Source: a virus
Strand: one strand, 5' to 3'
Virus record (IMG/VR): IMGVR_UViG_3300008952_000268
Span: 1 to 25,859 of that record
Length of the DNA stretch: 25,859 nt
Below, one piece after another: positions 14,176-23,367 of the stretch. The notes beneath the pieces were generated by a model, which did not search any database, had not been told where the DNA came from, and saw only the letters and a program-made list of their open reading frames with translations. Each line of letters opens with the position of its first letter. The stretch's first letter is position 1. Both the position numbers and the translations under genes were made by a program.

Positions 14176-14928
14176 TTACGCCTCCTTTCTCGTGAGGTGG
14201 CGGGCGACGTACTTAGCCGCCGTCGTGTTTTTCATGCGCTCCTTGGTCTGATCGCTGAGCGCTTCGTACTCCTGAAACAATCGAATGACCTCGGCCTGGT
14301 CGCCTTCTTCGGCGAACTCTGCGATGTCTTCGGGGAGATCGTTCATCGCAGTTCCGGGTCCGTCTTCGAATTCCGCGAGCGTTTCGGCTGGCTTCATGCG
14401 GCCACCTTCACGAATCGAACTAGCGAAGGTCTGCGCCGCTGATTTGCGGTCCTTCGCGTTCTTCAGCAGGCTTGAGAGATTCGATCGAGCGTTAGCCGTG
14501 ATCTCGTAACCTTCGGAATCGAGCTCGTCTAACGTCGAATCGCAGAACTCTGCGACCTCGTCGGCCTCGTCGCGTGCATTAAGCTTGTCCTCGAGCACCG
14601 TCAAGCGACCGACAAGCGCAGCCTGCGCATCGTCGTTCGTGTCCCCTTCGGAATCCGAGAACTCAGCGGGTACCGGCTCGTCCTCGGCTGGAGCAGGAGC
14701 GCCGCCGCCCTGCATGGCGTCAATCAGCGGCTGCACGGCCTTCATCCAGTCGAGGATTTGATCGATCTGCGCCTTGAGATCGCCAGCGCCGTCTTGCAGC
14801 TCGGCATCGTCGTCGTCGCCGCCGTCGTCATCATCGGCGAAAACGTTATCGGGTTTCGCCGATGGCTTCTTCGCCGTTGCCTTCTTCGACGACTTTCTAC
14901 GGGTCGTCTTGGTCTTCGGGGTCGCCAT
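14176..14928 (-). CDS. Internal in-frame scaffold product nested in the protease gene
   Basis: An ATG at codon 197 of the protease/scaffold frame is preceded by ACGGAGG with a 5-base gap, better than the SD of the full-length gene. Starting there gives a 250-aa protein with a Lys/Ala-rich N-terminus, an Asp-rich stretch and a helical acidic remainder: a separate scaffold without the protease. The same arrangement is established for lambda C/Nu3 and Mu I/Z, where the free scaffold outnumbers the protease fusion. Here it is inferred from SD strength and from the Pro/Asn junction just before the Met. Alternative: the SD is coincidental and only the fusion is made. Confidence 0.6.
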   Translation of the reverse strand: MATPKTKTTRRKSSKKATAKKPSAKPDNVFADDDDGGDDDDAELQDGAGDLKAQIDQILDWMKAVQPLIDAMQGGGAPAPAEDEPVPAEFSDSEGDTNDDAQAALVGRLTVLEDKLNARDEADEVAEFCDSTLDELDSEGYEITANARSNLSSLLKNAKDRKSAAQTFASSIREGGRMKPAETLAEFEDGPGTAMNDLPEDIAEFAEEGDQAEVIRLFQEYEALSDQTKERMKNTTAAKYVARHLTRKEA

Positions 14929-15516
14929 CGGCACCTCCGTATTTGGGTGGGGGAAATCATGAAAACTGAAGATCGCGACAGAAGAGGTGTCGCACGCAGC
15001 GACCGCCATCAGCGGATCTTCGGACGTCTCAAAAATAGTCGTCTGCCGTTCCTCTCCGATCTCGAGGAGCGGCATCTTGTTGTGGGGTGCCTCGTCGCTC
15101 AGAAGAGCAAGAGACCGGATTTCGGCCTTGCCGTGCGGAATCTCCGGGGATCGAGACGGCAAGAGACCCAAGCGGATGCGGTCATAGATGTCGATCGGAA
15201 CCTTGACCAGATCGGCGAACAAGCAGGCCTTGAGCTCCCCACCGATCGAGATGTCACCGACGCGAGTTAAGCGGACATGCCCAGCGAACTCTGGCGCATC
15301 CGTGTTGCCATGGTGTCCGATGTGTATCGGCGCCATGTAACCCTCGAGGAATAGAGTCTGATGGGTCGCGAGCGCCTCTTCGAGCCAAGCGCGATCAAGC
15401 GCTTCCTCGAGCCCCTTTACCCCTGCCGGAACCTCGGCAAAGATCGGCACATCGTAGATCGTAGCCGTCTCTCCGACGTCAGCGCGGTATCCGGTTCCTA
15501 TCAGATCTCCAGGCAT
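14176..15516 (-). CDS. Capsid maturation protease fused to scaffold (Mu gpI-like)
   Basis: A 446-aa protein. Residues 20-150 resemble Mu gpI-type head maturation proteases: LEGYMAPIHIGHHG carries candidate catalytic His residues (64-69). After a strand segment (KACLFADLVKV) comes RLGLLPSRSPEIPHG with the probable nucleophile Ser (121 or 123). Residues 197-250 are Lys/Ala-rich, then very acidic (FADDDDGGDDDDAEL). The rest is helical with a Glu/Asp-rich C-terminus typical of scaffolds, which fill the procapsid and are cleaved away. I chose the ATG at 15516. The open frame continues to 15924, but that part is low-quality sequence antisense to the HTH gene. The SD before 15516 is weak, so the exact start is uncertain. 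Confidence 0.8.
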   Translation of the reverse strand: MPGDLIGTGYRADVGETATIYDVPIFAEVPAGVKGLEEALDRAWLEEALATHQTLFLEGYMAPIHIGHHGNTDAPEFAGHVRLTRVGDISIGGELKACLFADLVKVPIDIYDRIRLGLLPSRSPEIPHGKAEIRSLALLSDEAPHNKMPLLEIGEERQTTIFETSEDPLMAVAACDTSSVAIFSFHDFPHPNTEVPMATPKTKTTRRKSSKKATAKKPSAKPDNVFADDDDGGDDDDAELQDGAGDLKAQIDQILDWMKAVQPLIDAMQGGGAPAPAEDEPVPAEFSDSEGDTNDDAQAALVGRLTVLEDKLNARDEADEVAEFCDSTLDELDSEGYEITANARSNLSSLLKNAKDRKSAAQTFASSIREGGRMKPAETLAEFEDGPGTAMNDLPEDIAEFAEEGDQAEVIRLFQEYEALSDQTKERMKNTTAAKYVARHLTRKEA

Positions 15517-15694
15517 AGAACCATCTACCGGGAACCGGTTGTACACGTTTTGTATGGTCGATGTCCATTTCGTGCATGTCAAGGAGCATCCTACGTTGTA
15601 TCGTGCATTCGTGTTGATCGGCGCTGCGCCTGATCTCAACTCGGGTCCCGGCTTGTACACACCTGCGGCGCCGATCCTTTTGACCTGGGAACCC

Positions 15695-16252
15695 ATGGCC
15701 ATGCACAGAACAGACCCCGACCGCATGTTCGAGCGTCCCTTGGCTCGACCCCGCAGGACCACCGCGCCGCAGCGCATCCAGATCACCGATCGCCAGTTAG
15801 CAGAGAAGCTCGGAGTCCCGAAGGACGTTATCAAGACGTTCAAAAAGCACGGAGCAGCGCATGAGCCGACGCCAGGGGAACCGCTCTGCCTCGGCCTGAG
15901 CGGCATGGAGCTCGCTGCGTTCATGGCGCTGGGAAAGCTGCTCGAAAAAGGCTACGTGACCAAACAGAAAGCTCGGCGCTTCTTCGGCGCGTGCATGCTC
16001 GCGCTCGCCACCGACCACCGTCACAAAGTGCTACTACAGGTCACCGATGCGAACGACGCGCGCGAATGCTCGCTGATCCAGGACAACGCGGCGAGCGACG
16101 GACCCAGCTTGATCGCCGTACCCGAGGAGCAGGCGCCTTATACGACGATCTACAATCTGTCGATCTTGAAGAACTTGGTGCGTGTCGCTCTGACCCAAGA
16201 GCCGCTAAAGCTGCCAGAGCTCGGTGATGTGGAATGCGTTCCCCATGCTTAG
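15695..16252 (+). CDS. HTH protein, possibly MerR-like regulator, of the plus-strand cassette
   Basis: A 185-aa protein. Residues about 30-50 form a likely helix-turn-helix (DRQLAEKLGVPKDVIKTFKK). A loop follows, then a second helical part (GMELAAFMALGKLLEKGYVT) which echoes the MerR layout of HTH, wing and an L-x-x-I-type helix ahead of a 'GY/GF' turn. The rest is mixed and unrecognised. It probably binds DNA, and candidate targets are the two dyad operators in this cassette. The ATG at 15695 has GGGA shortly before it. ATG 15701 and an upstream TTG at 15596 with AAGGAG are alternatives. Its stop overlaps the lipase start, so the two are co-translated. Regulator function is inferred; the C-terminal half could bind a ligand. 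Confidence 0.6.
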   Translation: MAMHRTDPDRMFERPLARPRRTTAPQRIQITDRQLAEKLGVPKDVIKTFKKHGAAHEPTPGEPLCLGLSGMELAAFMALGKLLEKGYVTKQKARRFFGACMLALATDHRHKVLLQVTDANDARECSLIQDNAASDGPSLIAVPEEQAPYTTIYNLSILKNLVRVALTQEPLKLPELGDVECVPHA

Positions 16253-16988
16253 CGACCACGAAGCCGCGCAGCTCTCCGCGGTCTGCTACCTTGAGCCGGG
16301 AGATTCGCAGGATGCGGCATTCCGCCTCGGGTGGGATTGCCTGCCGATCATCGAAGGAGACACCGAAGCGTTTATCTTCGAGCGTGATGGCGAGACCGTT
16401 ATCGGCTTTCGAGGAACGTCATCCATTGATGACACGATTACCGATCTGCGGCTGAGAAAGACACGCGCAGAGACGACCATCGATCCCGGCGCCGAGGTAC
16501 ATCGGGGGTTCTCCGAGTACGTCTCGAAAGTGTTCTCACGAGTGTTCGACGCCTGCCGATCCCCTGGCAATCGCCGACTCTACGTCGTCGGACATTCGCT
16601 CGGAGGTGCCGCGGCGCAGATCCTCGCGTTCCGGCTGGCCATGCTCGGGTCGGTCGTCGCACGGGTGGTGACGTTCGGCTCCCCGCGGGTCGGGAATAAA
16701 ACGTTCGCGCAGGAATACAACCGGCTGAACGAGCTCGACGAACGTACCAGGCGCTATCGTCGGGTACTCGATCCGGTCCCACACCTTCCCCCTCGGCGCT
16801 GGGGATACCGGCACACCGCAGGAGAGCGCTACATCGACCGGAACGGAAAGATCCACAAGCAGATCGGATGGTGGTCTGCCATGTGGGATAAGGCCTGCGC
16901 GCTGACGATACGGCGCAAATGGGATGGCAAGCCGGACCCGATCGCGGCGCACGGGGTCGACGGCTACATCGCGGCGCTGAAGCCATGA
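16245..16988 (+). CDS. Class-3 lipase (alpha/beta hydrolase)
   Basis: A 247-aa protein with the full set of Lipase_3 (PF01764-type) landmarks. An oxyanion-hole strand reads VIGFRGTSS (53-60). The nucleophile elbow GHSLGGA holds Ser118, after the strand RLYVVGHSL. VTFGSPRVGNK follows, and a catalytic Asp lies in LDPVPHLPP (Asp176). A candidate catalytic His is in AAHGVDGY (His236). Such enzymes hydrolyse acylglycerol or other ester lipids, so a target in the host envelope or lysis debris is plausible. No signal peptide or membrane segment is visible, so export would need lysis or virion incorporation. I chose ATG 16245, with an 8-base overlap with the upstream stop. GTG 16224 and ATG 16227 are possible. 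The 71-aa gene follows by ATGA overlap. Confidence 0.85.
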   Translation: MLSDHEAAQLSAVCYLEPGDSQDAAFRLGWDCLPIIEGDTEAFIFERDGETVIGFRGTSSIDDTITDLRLRKTRAETTIDPGAEVHRGFSEYVSKVFSRVFDACRSPGNRRLYVVGHSLGGAAAQILAFRLAMLGSVVARVVTFGSPRVGNKTFAQEYNRLNELDERTRRYRRVLDPVPHLPPRRWGYRHTAGERYIDRNGKIHKQIGWWSAMWDKACALTIRRKWDGKPDPIAAHGVDGYIAALKP

Positions 16989-17200
16989 ACGAGCTCCCCG
17001 CATGCCTCGACCATATCCGGCAGTCGATCGAGGAGATCAAGAAGCACACGGATGACCCGGCTTCGGCGCGCGAGTTAGAGCGCATTTTGTGGGAGTCGAT
17101 TCTGGAGCTCGCTGCCAAGCTCAGCCCTGTCCCATGGTCGAGCTTGGCAAAGGAAGCGCTGAAAACGCGCGAGATCAAATATCCGAAATGGACGGATTAG
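16985..17200 (+). CDS. Small helical protein coupled to the lipase gene
   Basis: A 71-aa protein of unknown function. Almost the whole length is predicted helical (SIEEIKKHTDDPASARELER, then SILELAAKLSPVPWSSLAKE). It has no membrane segment, signal peptide or recognised motif. Its ATG overlaps the lipase stop (ATGA), so it is surely translated together with the lipase. That coupling invites guesses of a lipase partner, stabiliser or immunity-type factor, none of which the sequence proves. It ends tail to tail with the RHH gene: the two stop codons overlap by two bases, leaving no room for a dedicated terminator between them. Confidence 0.65.
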   Translation: MNELPACLDHIRQSIEEIKKHTDDPASARELERILWESILELAAKLSPVPWSSLAKEALKTREIKYPKWTD

Positions 17201-17388
17201 AGGCTTCCGCGCCGTGCGTATCGGCGTCGCAAAATCTCGGTAAGCTTCTCTGAGATCGCGCCATGCGCGCGCTCGCCGATCTCCTCGAGGAATGCCGCGT
17301 AGACGTCCGCGTCGATGTAAGCTCGGATCATTTTGCGGCCTTTTGGTGGTCGACCTGGACCGCGTTTCGGTTCGGTTTTCTCGGTCAT
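17197..17388 (-). CDS. Small AT-hook plus ribbon-helix-helix DNA-binding protein
   Basis: A 63-aa protein. Residues 8-19 (KRGPGRPPKGRK) hold the Gly-Arg-Pro core of an AT-hook with flanking basic residues, which inserts into the minor groove of AT-rich DNA. Residues 19-60 have ribbon-helix-helix layout: a strand (MIRAYIDADV), helix A (YAAFLEEIGE) and helix B (ISEKLTEILRRRYARR). RHH proteins act as dimers that read palindromic operators. It lies at the end of the small minus-strand unit behind promoter copy A, which contains a 10-bp inverted repeat, so autoregulation is likely. ATG overlaps the TGA of the gene before (ATGA), with GGAG eight bases upstream. DNA binding is well supported; the operator is inferred. 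Confidence 0.75.
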   Translation of the reverse strand: MTEKTEPKRGPGRPPKGRKMIRAYIDADVYAAFLEEIGERAHGAISEKLTEILRRRYARRGSL

Positions 17389-17567
17389 TGGATCGGCTCC
17401 AGCGTCGCGCCAGCGACCGTGTCGCCGTCCGGGTTGATCAGCGAGCCGTCCTTGGTCCGGACCCAGTGCTCGCCGTCGTCGTCACGGTAAAGCCACGGTT
17501 GCGAGTCGCTAACCCGCTCGACGAGGTAGGTCTGCTCGGGGGTGTAAATGCGGTGGGTGGTCGTCAT
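17385..17567 (-). CDS. Small acidic protein upstream of the RHH gene
   Basis: A 60-aa protein of unknown function with strands separated by Asp/Gly turns (YRDDDGEHWV, KDGSLINPDGD), so a small beta domain is likely. I chose the ATG at 17567 over the longer in-frame ATG at 17606. The region between them is a leader related to the leader of the 56-aa unit, where the matching ATG is followed at once by TAA. The SD is weak (GTGGAA). If the 17606 start is used, the message would be nearly leaderless and the protein 73 aa. It is driven by promoter copy A and its stop overlaps the RHH start. Regulatory partner of the RHH protein is a guess. Confidence 0.55.
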   Translation of the reverse strand: MTTTHRIYTPEQTYLVERVSDSQPWLYRDDDGEHWVRTKDGSLINPDGDTVAGATLEPIQ

Positions 17568-17613
17568 GGGTAGAGATTCCACGGTGGTGGTTTGCGTTGC
17601 TCTCATGTAGATA

Positions 17614-17641
17614 ATTATGCACGATTACCCACTCGAGTCAA
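17614..17641 (-). promoter_or_regulatory. Promoter copy A, sigma70-like
   Basis: On the minus strand -35 TTGACT (17641-17636) and -10 CATAAT (17619-17614) are separated by 16 bp, both close to consensus. An AT-rich stretch including TTTTTTG lies upstream, possibly an UP-like element. The transcript would begin near 17607 and carry the 60-aa and RHH genes. The promoter sits inside the 60-bp direct repeat. Confidence 0.75.
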
Positions 17642-17653
17642 CAGTAATCGAGC
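17619..17653. promoter_or_regulatory. Dyad operator over promoter A
   Basis: Arms GCACGATTAC and GTAATCGAGC (9 of 10 bases complementary) are separated by 15 bases. The dyad covers the -35 box, the spacer and the edge of the -10 box, so a bound dimer would block RNA polymerase. Arm-centre spacing of 25 bp puts the two half-sites on roughly the same DNA face. Likely ligands are the RHH/AT-hook protein or the HTH protein of the cassette. Confidence 0.65.
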
Positions 17654-17678
17654 ACAAAAAAGAATTATTTCAGGACAC

Positions 17679-17703
17679 AAAAAAACCCCCCTTTCGGGGG
17701 GTT
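17679..17703 (-). terminator. Intrinsic terminator of the 56-aa unit
   Basis: Read on the minus strand, an 8-bp stem (AACCCCCC/GGGGGGTT) with a GAAA loop is followed by a run of seven T. This is a textbook rho-independent terminator. It lies 22 bases past the stop of the 56-aa ORF and just upstream of promoter copy A, so it separates the two small units. Confidence 0.92.
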
Positions 17704-17724
17704 GTGGTTCGTGGTGGGCTTCCT

Positions 17725-17895
17725 TTACTTCGATTCCTGCCGAGCTGCGTAGCGAGCGGCCGATTCGCCGATAAGTGCATCGCGATCCCAGATAGAGACG
17801 ATCTCCCACTCGTGGCCGTCGCGGTAATCTTGAGCGTCGGTGAGCTCGTCAAAAGTGAAGGTCTCGTTCGTGGTTTCGTTCTTTACGAGCAACAT
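17725..17895 (-). CDS. 56-aa acidic small protein with its own promoter and terminator
   Basis: A 56-aa protein (MLLVKNETTNETFTFDEL at the N-terminus) too short for usual gene calling, yet strongly supported. The signals are AAAGGAG eight bases before the ATG, a promoter-operator copy about 40 bases upstream and an intrinsic terminator 22 bases after the stop. The protein is acidic with one Trp-containing strand (HEWEIVSIWDRDAL) and a helical Ala-rich end (ESAARYAARQESK), with no membrane segment or known motif. The independent transcription unit resembles a moron gene or a small host-takeover or anti-defence protein. That is inference from architecture, since the sequence gives no function. 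Confidence 0.75.
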   Translation of the reverse strand: MLLVKNETTNETFTFDELTDAQDYRDGHEWEIVSIWDRDALIGESAARYAARQESK

Positions 17896-17941
17896 GTTCT
17901 CGGCTCCTTTGTGGTTTGGTTGTCCGTTGCTTACATGATTA

Positions 17942-17969
17942 ATTATGCACGATTACCCACTCGCGTCAA
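17942..17969 (-). promoter_or_regulatory. Promoter copy B, sigma70-like
   Basis: On the minus strand -35 TTGACG (17969-17964) and -10 CATAAT (17947-17942) lie 16 bp apart. Predicted initiation near 17935 gives a leader of about 40 bases. The leader opens with ATGTAA, a start-stop pair, before AAAGGAG and the 56-aa ORF. It differs from copy A only at the last base of the -35 box. Confidence 0.75.
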
Positions 17970-17981
17970 CAGTAATCGAGC
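17947..17981. promoter_or_regulatory. Dyad operator over promoter B
   Basis: The arms GCACGATTAC and GTAATCGAGC with a 15-base spacer are identical to the copy A operator. The same regulator should therefore control both small units together. Confidence 0.65.
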
Positions 17982-18055
17982 ACAAAAAAGAATTATTTCG
18001 GCGCAGCACAAACCGCCCGCGGAGACGGGTTCGGACCCCCGATCGACCCTTGGCC

Positions 18056-19006
18056 TTAATAGACGCCGGGGGTCGCCTCTTTCCTGAACCCCTCGTCCGG
18101 CTCGAATGCGCGAGCCTGCGCAATCTTGACCGGCTTGACGTGCCCCTCGGGAGTAATTAGCCCCTTGTCCCGCAACTCCCGCTTGTCGACCAGGCGCACC
18201 GTGCACCGGCAGTTGTAGCCGTTCGGCGGTCGGATCGTCTCCCAAATGGGATGCGTCACCGCGGCTGTGACCCCGTCGATCGTCGCGTGCGTATCGCGTA
18301 CCGCCGAGTCAGTTACCGCCATGTACTCGAATGCGCCGATCACCTGCTGCACGTCGGGGTCCTTCGCCTGTTCGAACCGGCCGTCGGTGTACGCCGTGTT
18401 CATGTTCGTACGGAACACCGTCTCCGCGTAGCTCCTGCTGAACCCTTGCATCTCCATCATCGCGTCCTCGAACTGCGTCGAGGTCAAGCCACGGGAGATG
18501 ACTCGCTGAAGCGCTTCGCGTGTGATGCCGATTCTCTCGAGTGCGCTTCGGGTGTGCCGTGCAACCACCCGTTCGCCGCGCTGCGCCATGGAAAAAACGC
18601 GGTCAGAGCGTTCATAAAGTCGCGCTACGGCGCGCCATAGTGGTTCGCCGTCCATCGGTCGCGCGAGTTCCGGGGTACGGCGCGCGAGGATTTCGGCCGC
18701 TGAGGTGAAGCCCTGACCGCTACCTGGTGCAAGGGTCTCGCCGGCGCTGAACAAGACCTGGTGAACGTCTGCTGGTTGCCTGCTCTCCAGCGCTTTCGCC
18801 TCGAGTACGAGACGCCGGCGACCGTGCAAATCAGCCAGAGCCATCGAGCGCCACATAGCACGATGGAGCCGCTGGAACGATGGCCCCACCGGTCGACCGC
18901 TAAGAATGGCTCGCGTGTATTGCAGGATCGATTCCTCGAATTCCTTCGAGCTCGAATCGATCAGATCTTGGAATTCGTCCAGCGGTGATTTAACGGAACG
19001 AACCAC
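18056..19006 (-). CDS. MuF-type head morphogenesis protein (Mu gp30/SPP1 gp7-like)
   Basis: A 316-aa minor head protein, mostly helical for the first 200 residues. The MuF signature follows: an Ala/Tyr helix (SRSYAETVFRTNMNTAYTDG), then VTDSAVRDTHATIDGV, and PPNGYNCRCTVRLVDKREL holding the conserved Cys pair. MuF proteins bind the portal, enter the head in few copies and help head assembly and genome ejection. I chose GTG 19006 because GGGAGG lies five bases before it. The longer frame starts with GTG at 19030 without such an SD. It overlaps the portal stop by 17 bases. No toxin or enzyme domain is fused to its C-terminus, as happens in some MuF proteins. Confidence 0.85.
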   Translation of the reverse strand: MVRSVKSPLDEFQDLIDSSSKEFEESILQYTRAILSGRPVGPSFQRLHRAMWRSMALADLHGRRRLVLEAKALESRQPADVHQVLFSAGETLAPGSGQGFTSAAEILARRTPELARPMDGEPLWRAVARLYERSDRVFSMAQRGERVVARHTRSALERIGITREALQRVISRGLTSTQFEDAMMEMQGFSRSYAETVFRTNMNTAYTDGRFEQAKDPDVQQVIGAFEYMAVTDSAVRDTHATIDGVTAAVTHPIWETIRPPNGYNCRCTVRLVDKRELRDKGLITPEGHVKPVKIAQARAFEPDEGFRKEATPGVY

Positions 19007-20321
19007 CGAACCCTCCCGATGCGCTGGCACCCTGGAGCGTGTCCAATCCGGCCGACCCTTCGATCACTTCATCGCCGTCCTCTGGCATTGTCCAGCCGAG
19101 CTTTTCGTAGACTTCCGATTTCTTCAACGGAATCCCAGCACGTAACGCGACCTCGGCATTCTGCGCGTTCGCCGACGGGTCATCGATCTCCTTTGACGTC
19201 GTAACGAACTTTGGCATGCGCGGTCGGTTCGGGAATATCCGCTGTAGCTTGTCGCGGTTCCAATCCCAAAGGAGTCGAATGAGTTTGCCGCCCATTTTCT
19301 CATCCTTCAAATCGCGATCGGCCTGGATCAGACTTTGCGCTACCGATTGCTCGACCTCGGCACGTGCGAGCGATCCGACGCCTTCCTGGCCACCGAGCGG
19401 CAGCACCGAGCCGTAGAGATATCCGCGCAGCGCATTGTCACAGTAGTCGAGCCAACCCATCGCGATCGCGTTACCGTCCGATCCCATCGCGTGAAAGTTG
19501 ACCTTGTCGAGTGACGAGTGCGCAAAGACATGCTCTCCTTTGTGCTTTTTCGCCTGCGCGATGTACTCGTCCATCACGTCTTGAGCGGACCGGCCATCAC
19601 CACCTGCCGAGGTACGTTCATCGATCTCGATGTCGATCTGCCCCATGGCCCATCGCTCGAGACCCGATAGGACAAGCGGGAGCGTCTCCATTTTCGCCCA
19701 CCACATGAAATAAGCGGAACGAATCGCTGGCCATCCGTAACCCAGCGTTCTCTCCTCGTCACACCAAACAATCGAGACGAGCGGCGAGTTAGACGTCAGC
19801 CGGGTTTTCTTGCCGCGCCCCGTCGCGCTCTTGAGATACCAGCCCCAGGCGCCATCCTCCTTGAGCTTCGCAACGCGGTCCTTGTCGATCTCCTTGATGC
19901 GCGTGATGACGCGCCAGGGTTGCGCCGGGATTTCGTCGATGCCACCGAGCTGCAAATGCCGCACAGCGTTCTCGGGAAACCCGTAGTATCGACCGCGGAA
20001 ATACCCATGCGCCGCAAGGGTCTGCGCCGCCTTGAAGGAGTCGATCTCTCCGAGCGCATCCTGCATCCAGACGGCTAGATCCTTCTCTTCGGCCGTCGCG
20101 TTTTTCGCCGGAACGACCATGAAATCATCGCCGGCAATCTCGCTAGAGCGGATGTCAATCGCCTGAGCGGCGACAGCATCTTGGCGCAGCTTGTCCCAAA
20201 TCTCGGGTTCCTTCTGCTGCGCGAGATCGGTGTCGACAATCTCACGGAACCCGCGGTAGATCGATTGTAGCGCTTGGGGGTAGAGCGATCGTGCGTAGCT
20301 GACGCTGATGGGATAGGTCAC
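18990..20321 (-). CDS. Portal protein, Mu gp29/DUF935-like
   Basis: A 443-aa protein that forms the dodecameric portal ring through which DNA enters and leaves the head. DUF935-type features are the N-terminal helical part with AAQAIDIRSSEIAGDDFMVV, a mid-protein segment (TLGYGWPAIRSAYFMWWAKM) that precedes the wing/stem region, and ARAEVEQSVAQSLIQADRDL. The C-terminal motif GIPLKKSEVYEKLGWTMPED is shared with gp29-like portals. The last 25 residues are Gly/Ser-rich and flexible. The start is a GTG that overlaps the terminase TGA as GTGA, and the gene is followed by the MuF gene, the canonical order. Length fits the family (about 400-520 residues). Portal identity is strong; the gp29-like subfamily is moderately sure. 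Confidence 0.88.
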   Translation of the reverse strand: MTYPISVSYARSLYPQALQSIYRGFREIVDTDLAQQKEPEIWDKLRQDAVAAQAIDIRSSEIAGDDFMVVPAKNATAEEKDLAVWMQDALGEIDSFKAAQTLAAHGYFRGRYYGFPENAVRHLQLGGIDEIPAQPWRVITRIKEIDKDRVAKLKEDGAWGWYLKSATGRGKKTRLTSNSPLVSIVWCDEERTLGYGWPAIRSAYFMWWAKMETLPLVLSGLERWAMGQIDIEIDERTSAGGDGRSAQDVMDEYIAQAKKHKGEHVFAHSSLDKVNFHAMGSDGNAIAMGWLDYCDNALRGYLYGSVLPLGGQEGVGSLARAEVEQSVAQSLIQADRDLKDEKMGGKLIRLLWDWNRDKLQRIFPNRPRMPKFVTTSKEIDDPSANAQNAEVALRAGIPLKKSEVYEKLGWTMPEDGDEVIEGSAGLDTLQGASASGGFGGSFR

Positions 20322-21790: not shown

Positions 21791-22193
21791 CGGCCTGTTC
21801 CAGCATGTCACCGAGCGACAGGTTGCCCGAATGCTCGACCTTGTGAGCGGACTCGAGACCCAGGATTTTGTCGATGCGTTGTTGAGCTCGAACCTTTTCC
21901 ATCGGGGTTGCGGCGGGGTCTCGAACGACGCCCCAGTAGACCTTGAGCGCCTTGCCGCGATGGTCCTCGATGTCCTCTTCGGTGTACTCCCGCAGCATCT
22001 CACGCGCGCGAGACAGATACCGCTCGGCGGTACGGGCAGTGACACCGTATCTCGATATCACCGTTTGCTTTATCTGCGCCTTAAAATAGCCCAGAGCCAA
22101 GAGGTCGGCGACGAGCCGGATGCGCTCGTCCTGCTCCTCTATCGTACAGCGGTCCCCACCGCCGCCTTTCTTTTCGCGCTGTTCATCGCTCAT
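21762..22193 (-). CDS. terS: Terminase small subunit
   Basis: A 143-aa DNA-recognition subunit. Residues 15-70 form an HTH-bearing region (IRLVADLLALGYFKAQIKQT followed by YGVTARTAERYLSRAREML), consistent with binding a packaging site. A helical part (TPMEKVRAQQRIDKILGLES) follows, with an acidic disordered tail (DMLEQADADADSETE) that would contact TerL or the portal. The ATG overlaps the methyltransferase stop by 11 bases and AAGG lies nine bases upstream. TerL begins within its last codons. TerS sequences vary greatly, so the call rests on HTH pattern, size and position before TerL. Confidence 0.82.
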   Translation of the reverse strand: MSDEQREKKGGGGDRCTIEEQDERIRLVADLLALGYFKAQIKQTVISRYGVTARTAERYLSRAREMLREYTEEDIEDHRGKALKVYWGVVRDPAATPMEKVRAQQRIDKILGLESAHKVEHSGNLSLGDMLEQADADADSETE

Positions 22194-23367
22194 GGCGCTC
22201 GGCCTTCTGGCCTGTGAGGTTCTCCCAGCGCTGGACGATGACGTCGCAGTACGCGGGCGATATCTCGACGCCGTAGCAGACTCGGCCGAGTTGTTCGGCT
22301 GCGATGAGGGTGGTGCCGCTGCCGAGGAAGGGGTCGTAGACTATGTCGCCCTTCTCCCCGTGGTTGCGGATGGGCCGGGCCATGCACTCGACGGGCTTCT
22401 GGGTGCTGTGCCCGGTCTCGTTCTTAACGTGCGAGATGTCCCAGACGGTGGACTGCGAGCGGTCGCCGCACCAGCGGGCGGTGGAGCCCTTTCGGACGGC
22501 GTACCAGCATGGCTCGTGCTGCCAGTGGTAGGCACCGCGGGAGATAGCGAACCGAGACTTTCGCCATATGACCTGGTTACGAATCTCGAAGGTGCTGGCT
22601 CTGAGATTGTCGGCGACCTGCCCCGACTCGCACGCATCATGCCACACGTACGATACGTCGCCAGGGAACAGCGCATAGGCTTCTGACCAATCAACCCGGT
22701 CATCGTTCTGCACTGCACCGCGGCGGGGTTCCGACAGCCCAGAATCTACCCGCCACTCGGGATCGTACTCCACCCCGTACGGCGGGTCCGTGACCATGAT
22801 GAACGGCTCGGCCCCGTCGAGCAGACGCGCAACCCCCTCCGCGTCGGTCGAGTCGCCGCACAGAAGCCGATGCGGCCCGAGCGCCCAGATGTCCCCGGGC
22901 TTCGTTACGGGTTCCTCGGGCGGCTCTGGCGCTTCGTCTTCTTCAATCTCCGCTGGCTCGAGAATGCCCGCGTCTTTCGCTAAGTCGTCGAGCATGCCTG
23001 CTAGCGCTTCGTCGCCGGTCTGAACGTCGTCGAGAACGTCCCGCAGAATCGCGGCATCCGCTTCGGCCATCGCGCCGATCGGGTCGTAGGTCGCGAGGAG
23101 CTTATCCGCTTCGGCCTTGGAGACGTCGACAATCAGCGTCGGGATCTCCTGATCGTGGCCGACGTCGCGCCGCAAGTGCCCGTCGATTAGCTCCAGGCCG
23201 TCGTCGGTCTCACGTGCGACAGCAGCGCCAGCGAATCCGACCTCGGCGAGCACGGCGGCCAGCGCGTTCTGCTGCGCCTTGGGGTGTTTGCGCCAGTTAC
23301 GCGGGTTCTCTGCGAGCTCGGCTGCGGGAACCCTTCGGAACTCCTTGATCCTGTCACGGAAAGCCAT
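22183..23367 (-). CDS. ParB-like domain fused to DNA adenine/cytosine-N4 methyltransferase
   Basis: A 394-aa fusion. Residues 10-110 are a ParB/Srx-like domain with LELIDGHLRRDVG, including the GHLR core (63-66). Residues 155-390 are a beta-class amino-methyltransferase: motif IV TDPPYGVEY (DPPY at 194-197) precedes the AdoMet motif DPFLGSGTTLIAAEQLG (345-361), and HSTQKP (320-325) lies before it. The enzyme should transfer methyl from S-adenosylmethionine to adenine N6 or cytosine N4. ParB-methylase fusions are widespread in phages and probably protect DNA from restriction or mark it for packaging. AAGGAGG lies seven bases before the ATG. The stop overlaps TerS by 11 bases. The target site cannot be read from the sequence. 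Confidence 0.93.
   Translation of the reverse strand: MAFRDRIKEFRRVPAAELAENPRNWRKHPKAQQNALAAVLAEVGFAGAAVARETDDGLELIDGHLRRDVGHDQEIPTLIVDVSKAEADKLLATYDPIGAMAEADAAILRDVLDDVQTGDEALAGMLDDLAKDAGILEPAEIEEDEAPEPPEEPVTKPGDIWALGPHRLLCGDSTDAEGVARLLDGAEPFIMVTDPPYGVEYDPEWRVDSGLSEPRRGAVQNDDRVDWSEAYALFPGDVSYVWHDACESGQVADNLRASTFEIRNQVIWRKSRFAISRGAYHWQHEPCWYAVRKGSTARWCGDRSQSTVWDISHVKNETGHSTQKPVECMARPIRNHGEKGDIVYDPFLGSGTTLIAAEQLGRVCYGVEISPAYCDVIVQRWENLTGQKAERHER

Follow-up and report, generated by a model that had tools for sequence, protein, structure and literature searches.

The viral record IMGVR_UViG_3300008952_000268, analysed here at its full length of 25,859 nucleotides (the window), carries two tiny transcription units in its Mu-like head module, each headed by a virtually identical promoter-operator. 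We read this locus as a two-unit moron cassette under one shared operator, in which the last gene of the second unit, gene C, probably encodes an autorepressor and which would work like an anti-CRISPR (acr)-aca locus; to this reading, which rests on the sequence, we give about an even chance. What appears to be new is the doubled form, since the moron or acr-aca-like arrangement as such is already familiar.

Two copies of one promoter-operator

A BLAST self-comparison of the record returned a single direct repeat at E<1e-3, a 60-bp pair at 17612-17671 and 17940-17999 with a spacing of 328 (E 2.6e-24). Each copy holds a sigma70-like promoter on the minus strand, TTGAC[T/G]-N16-CATAAT, which agrees with the consensus at 10 of 12 positions. 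In copy A (17940..17999, minus strand), an AT-rich upstream element precedes a -35 box TTGACG (17969-17964) and a -10 box CATAAT (17947-17942); copy B (17612..17671, minus strand) is built in the same way, with TTGACT at 17641-17636 and CATAAT at 17619-17614. A promoter scan of positions 16000-19000 called exactly two sites, which are the two copies, although the call alone is weak because shuffled sequences average 1.0.

Read along the minus strand, each copy consists of GAAATAATTCTTTTTTG, TGCTCGATTAC, TGTTGAC[T/G], CGAGTGG, GTAATCGTGCA and TAATTA, the -10 box being CATAAT; the AT-rich GAAATAATTCTTTTTTG occupies the place of an UP element. The dyad TGCTCGATTAC-N15-GTAATCGTGCA has arms that lie 15 bp apart, one just upstream of the -35 box and the other running into the -10 box. 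Written without assigning a strand, as TGCACGATTAC-N15-GTAATCGAGCA, it occupies 17946..17982 in copy A, where the arms flank the -35 box and the inner arm touches the -10 box, and recurs at 17618..17654 in copy B. Because the same dyad brackets the -35 box and abuts the -10 box in both promoters, a bound protein would exclude RNA polymerase at both, and it is a reasonable inference that one regulator binds the two. When the 84-bp region was put through dinucleotide shuffling, 1.65% of the shuffles gave a dyad of equal quality; its significance thus appears moderate, not overwhelming, and the second copy does not count as independent evidence. A 16-bp palindrome at the -10 box, TAATTATGCACGATTA, was dropped as the true operator, being present in 35% of the shuffles.

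The original prediction singled out the interval 17612-17999, which takes in both copies together with gene A and the terminator between them. Its description of 60-bp units identical at 59 of 60 positions was borne out, and no other significant direct repeat turned up in the window. The sigma70-like promoter predicted in each copy is likewise present, and the single mismatch assigned to the -35 box lies at position 6 of the hexamer, where the copies have T or G and the consensus A. The dyad proposed over both promoters is real, but its arms measure 11 bp with 10/11 pairing, and it spans 37 bp in total, not 35. The suggested difference in strength is possible, but one base, T versus G with neither matching the consensus, is slight evidence for a designed ratio.

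The search for the dyad elsewhere that had been proposed with the prediction was run on the record, and the exact arm pair occurs there nowhere but in the two copies. It is also absent from a sister contig, which ends 80 bp short of copy B, and from the bacterial genome contigs searched. No dyad with the TTGAC core was found in the viral contig collection searched; a looser dyad pattern gave 14 matches in these contigs, representing 10 distinct sequence contexts, about the number estimated for chance, and none of the 14 carries the TTGAC promoter core. Separately, an unrelated viral contig (L029, 728-11105) was seen to carry at least seven near-identical sequences of the T7-like late-promoter type (ACTATAGGGACACTTTCAAGGCCCC).

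Two predicted small transcription units

On the minus strand, the order is MuF gene, P_A, gene A, terminator, P_B, gene B and gene C, and the end of C meets three plus-strand genes. Gene A (17725..17895, minus strand) encodes 56 aa behind a good Shine-Dalgarno sequence, AAAGGAG, and is followed by an intrinsic terminator (17684..17703, minus strand; AACCCCCCGAAAGGGGGGTTTTTTT) with an 8-bp G/C-rich stem, a GAAA loop and a T run. When positions 17703-17684 plus the T run were folded, the z score was -2.5. Gene B (17385..17567, minus strand; 60 aa) shares an ATGA overlap with gene C (17197..17388, minus strand; 63 aa), and the 3' end of this pair shows only a weak hairpin near 17197-17181. With P_A in front of gene A and the terminator after it, gene A is predicted to be a transcription unit of its own and B-C a second one. 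This agrees with the original claim of two tiny units with a common promoter-operator, as a strong terminator separates the two promoters and short ORFs follow the promoters directly.

Gene B could alternatively begin at the ATG at 17606, practically at the expected +1, which would give a 73-aa form; the equivalent ATG of copy A is directly followed by a stop codon. The leader yielded neither a known RNA family nor a structured element, and a terminator upstream of P_A was unsupported in a folding test.

Genes A and B have a codon-position GC pattern that matches that of the head genes. Their proteins gave no match in Pfam, NCBIfam, PHROGs or PADLOC, and tblastn against the phage collection returned nothing for gene A and two chance-level matches (E 4-5) for gene B. 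Among the viral contigs, gene A had no relatives and gene C had one only in the sister contig, with none among the genome contigs; altogether, no homologues of A, B or C outside the sister phage were found in the proteins and contigs searched. PADLOC detected no defence system at the locus.

The locus within the head module

Upstream of P_A lies a MuF-type head gene (18056-19030, minus strand; Pfam 1.1e-19). The three convergent plus-strand genes beyond C are gene D (16985..17200; 71 aa, PHROG 10733, function unassigned), a class-3 lipase gene that belongs to the same inserted block (16236..16988, possibly with a GTG start at 16224) and a 185-aa HTH-like gene (15695..16252) with a weak HTH-like N-terminus, whose relatives among the viral contigs were limited to the sister contig. 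From 15516 the structural operon continues: a 446-aa gene comes first, then one of 153 aa, and then the major capsid gene, which is Mu gpT-like and scores over the Pfam cut-off. We considered the 446-aa gene (14176-15516), which holds the protease position, as a Mu-I-like protease, and profile support was absent. Local GC is 47-55% compared with about 60%, and the composition dips at 17500-18100.

Three further features of the record were noted. The class-3 lipase gene (16236-16988) stands on the plus strand, opposite to the phage head-gene block in which it is embedded. Between the divergent genes at 15516 (minus strand) and 15695 (plus strand), the boxes TTCGTGCAT and ATCGTGCAT lie at a distance of 31 bp from each other (15569-15608). 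Just upstream of the terminase gene, 22183-23367 (minus strand) encodes a DNA methyltransferase with a ParB-like N-terminal part.

Candidate regulators

Protein C is basic, with a net charge of about +6, and contains a GRPPKGRK stretch followed by a beta-alpha-alpha-like pattern. As the last gene of its operon encodes a protein with this charge and pattern, we regard C as a small DNA-binding-like candidate autorepressor. The RHH label that the original prediction gave to the 63-aa protein gained no support from profiles; a Pfam scan, an RHH_1 search and other profile searches produced no RHH, HTH, other DNA-binding or Aca match. BLAST gave no alignment between C and the Aca1 of JBD30, and a model folded from the single sequence shows one long helix and no strand (pLDDT 71).

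It is possible, though we doubt it, that the dyad serves another regulator, either the 185-aa HTH-like protein or an immunity repressor whose gene lies beyond the fragment, in which case the two units would be lysogenic-conversion or early genes under a prophage repressor. The HTH protein invoked in the original prediction does match the Phage_CI_repr HTH, but below the threshold (Pfam E 0.037). In addition, ATCGTGCAT, which forms part of the dyad's inner arm, is found once more exactly (15600) and once with one mismatch (15569), both times upstream of the 185-aa gene, and no immunity region is recognised in the record, itself a fragment. However, 9-mers of this kind are about as numerous in the window as expected by chance, the model of the 185-aa protein reaches a pLDDT of 39, and the gene co-transcribed with B is C, not the 185-aa gene.

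History of the repeat

Upstream of the 60-bp core, identity between the copies breaks immediately, and its borders are sharp. On the leader side, where the original prediction had seen a similar leader, about 25 gapped columns do align, but 8 of the 25 differ, whereas the core has 1 difference in 60 (Fisher p=1.6e-4). This difference disfavours a uniform recent copy and fits selection on the promoter-operator or gene conversion. We infer a duplication in which the core was held constant, and the repeat probably arose by the addition of one unit beside an existing one. An assembly artefact is an unlikely source, since a typical read is longer than 60 bp. Searching phages and plasmids by blastn with the whole locus gave no match.

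We think it quite unlikely that a strong constitutive promoter was simply duplicated in tandem, with an incidental dyad and no regulator in common. Duplicated promoters need no regulator, and shuffling leaves a 1.65% chance of an equal dyad; on the other hand, the leader is far more diverged than the core, which speaks against mere recency, and the dyad arms sit exactly at repressor positions around the -35 and -10 boxes.

The sister phage contig, IMGVR_UViG_3300007513_001187, is near-identical to the window, with 15 differences over the 14.8 kb overlap that runs from 17533 downwards. Nine of these 15 fall within the 129 bp of gene B that are covered (clustering p about 1e-15). As five of the nine are synonymous, gene B is probably translated. 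Since the differences crowd in gene B, the locus probably forms the edge of a recombined segment, with a mosaic boundary at this gene. The crowding coincides with the end of the contig and may mark a boundary of recombination or of strain variation. That the 60-bp copies are mainly recombination seams for cassette gain or loss, or a mobile promoter element, with the promoter as a passenger, is very unlikely: the identity borders are sharp and both the mosaic boundary of the sister and its contig end lie within 80 bp of copy B, but the sister contig stops before the repeat, so that no A-minus or exchanged allele is seen, and the unit was found in no other genome searched.

Proposed regulation and its meaning

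Under the preferred reading, a moron cassette of two units with one operator, P_A would drive gene A and transcription would halt at the strong terminator, and P_B would drive B and C. Right after DNA entry, the unrepressed promoters would fire a burst of A and B. As C accumulates, it would bind the dyad and repress both units, as Aca proteins do, and the burst would be shut down. Selection for the shared regulator, or else recombination, would have preserved the identity of the 60-bp core as the leader drifted, and the 328-bp A unit could be gained or lost when the direct repeats recombine. The products of A and B would probably counteract host defences or target host functions.

If this is true, A and B would qualify as candidate anti-defence genes by their shared promoter-operator, with no need of homology, and Aca-like repressors would gain a non-HTH kind. 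Repetition of a dyad-bearing promoter between the MuF and capsid genes could then serve as a search key for further genes of this kind in bacterial phages, as shared promoters have in archaeal viruses. If it is wrong, the locus would be an ordinary duplicated promoter in a moron region.

Comparison with known systems

The circuit had originally been called unrecognised, but repressor dyads over the promoters of small accessory genes at a head-gene junction are the known acr-aca or moron layout. Homologues of the window's MuF protein were found in about 240 phages, 149 of them Pseudomonas phages. In JBD30, D3112 and JBD5, anti-CRISPR genes or operons (acrIF1-aca1, AcrF2 and AcrE1-AcrF3-Acr-aca, respectively) occupy the gap between the F/G pair and the head protease, and their acr promoters carry inverted repeats. 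At the F-G/protease junction of Mu, Mushu and one Klebsiella phage, no accessory gene is annotated. A duplicated operator was seen in none of eleven reference phage regions, not all of which span the whole junction, and twenty terminase relatives (26-34% identity) had no recognisable MuF gene or repeated promoter nearby. In the bacterial Aca families studied, inverted repeats lie in the core promoter and repression acts through them (PMC9410906; PMC8434428), and a deviating, low GC has been reported for the acr region of Mu-like phages and for morons (PMC4378225).

The present locus resembles the acr-aca loci of Pseudomonas Mu-like phages in its place at the same junction of MuF/neck and protease/major head genes, the gene at the protease position being itself unrecognised here. 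It also has its own promoter with an inverted repeat inside the -35/-10 core, the hallmark taken from PMC9410906, a low local GC, and, behind its small ORFs, a small gene for a putative DNA-binding protein. It differs in having two separately terminated units with duplicated promoter-operators, where those loci have one operon. Furthermore, C is not a small HTH protein of a known Aca family, A and B are neither known Acrs nor homologous to them, and the dyad sequence is unrelated. As a known Aca and a known Acr were both looked for and neither was found, membership of the acr-aca class is not claimed.

Morons of lambdoid and Mu-like phages are likewise small genes of deviating composition that bring their own promoter and terminator and sit between two genes that are direct neighbours in related phages. 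Unit A has both a promoter and a terminator, and unit B-C a promoter and the weak 3' hairpin; the insertion separates genes that adjoin in relatives (Mushu and the Klebsiella phage lack accessory genes there) and coincides with the GC dip. Unlike those morons, two units stand here in tandem with a common operator, which implies joint regulation. The stoperators of mycobacteriophages (PMC9283540) also offer one repressor many copies of one site per phage genome, but they are asymmetric and genome-wide and their repressor terminates elongation, whereas the dyad of our locus lies inside two promoters only.

In archaeal viruses, small early genes each stand behind a near-identical promoter plus regulatory sequence; a single small regulator presumably switches these shared promoters off, and they have been used to find anti-defence genes (PMC11065993). 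The likeness to SIRV2 and others, with Aca8-type regulators (PMC11065993), lies in the repeated promoter-regulatory sequence before small, mostly single genes. Those promoters are of the BRE/TATA kind and present in about a dozen copies, whereas ours are bacterial, sigma70-like and two in number. It seems rather unlikely that the locus is a full phage counterpart of the archaeal scheme, in which stacked units with identical promoter-operators would obey a new non-HTH Aca-like autorepressor and the copies would double as recombination seams.
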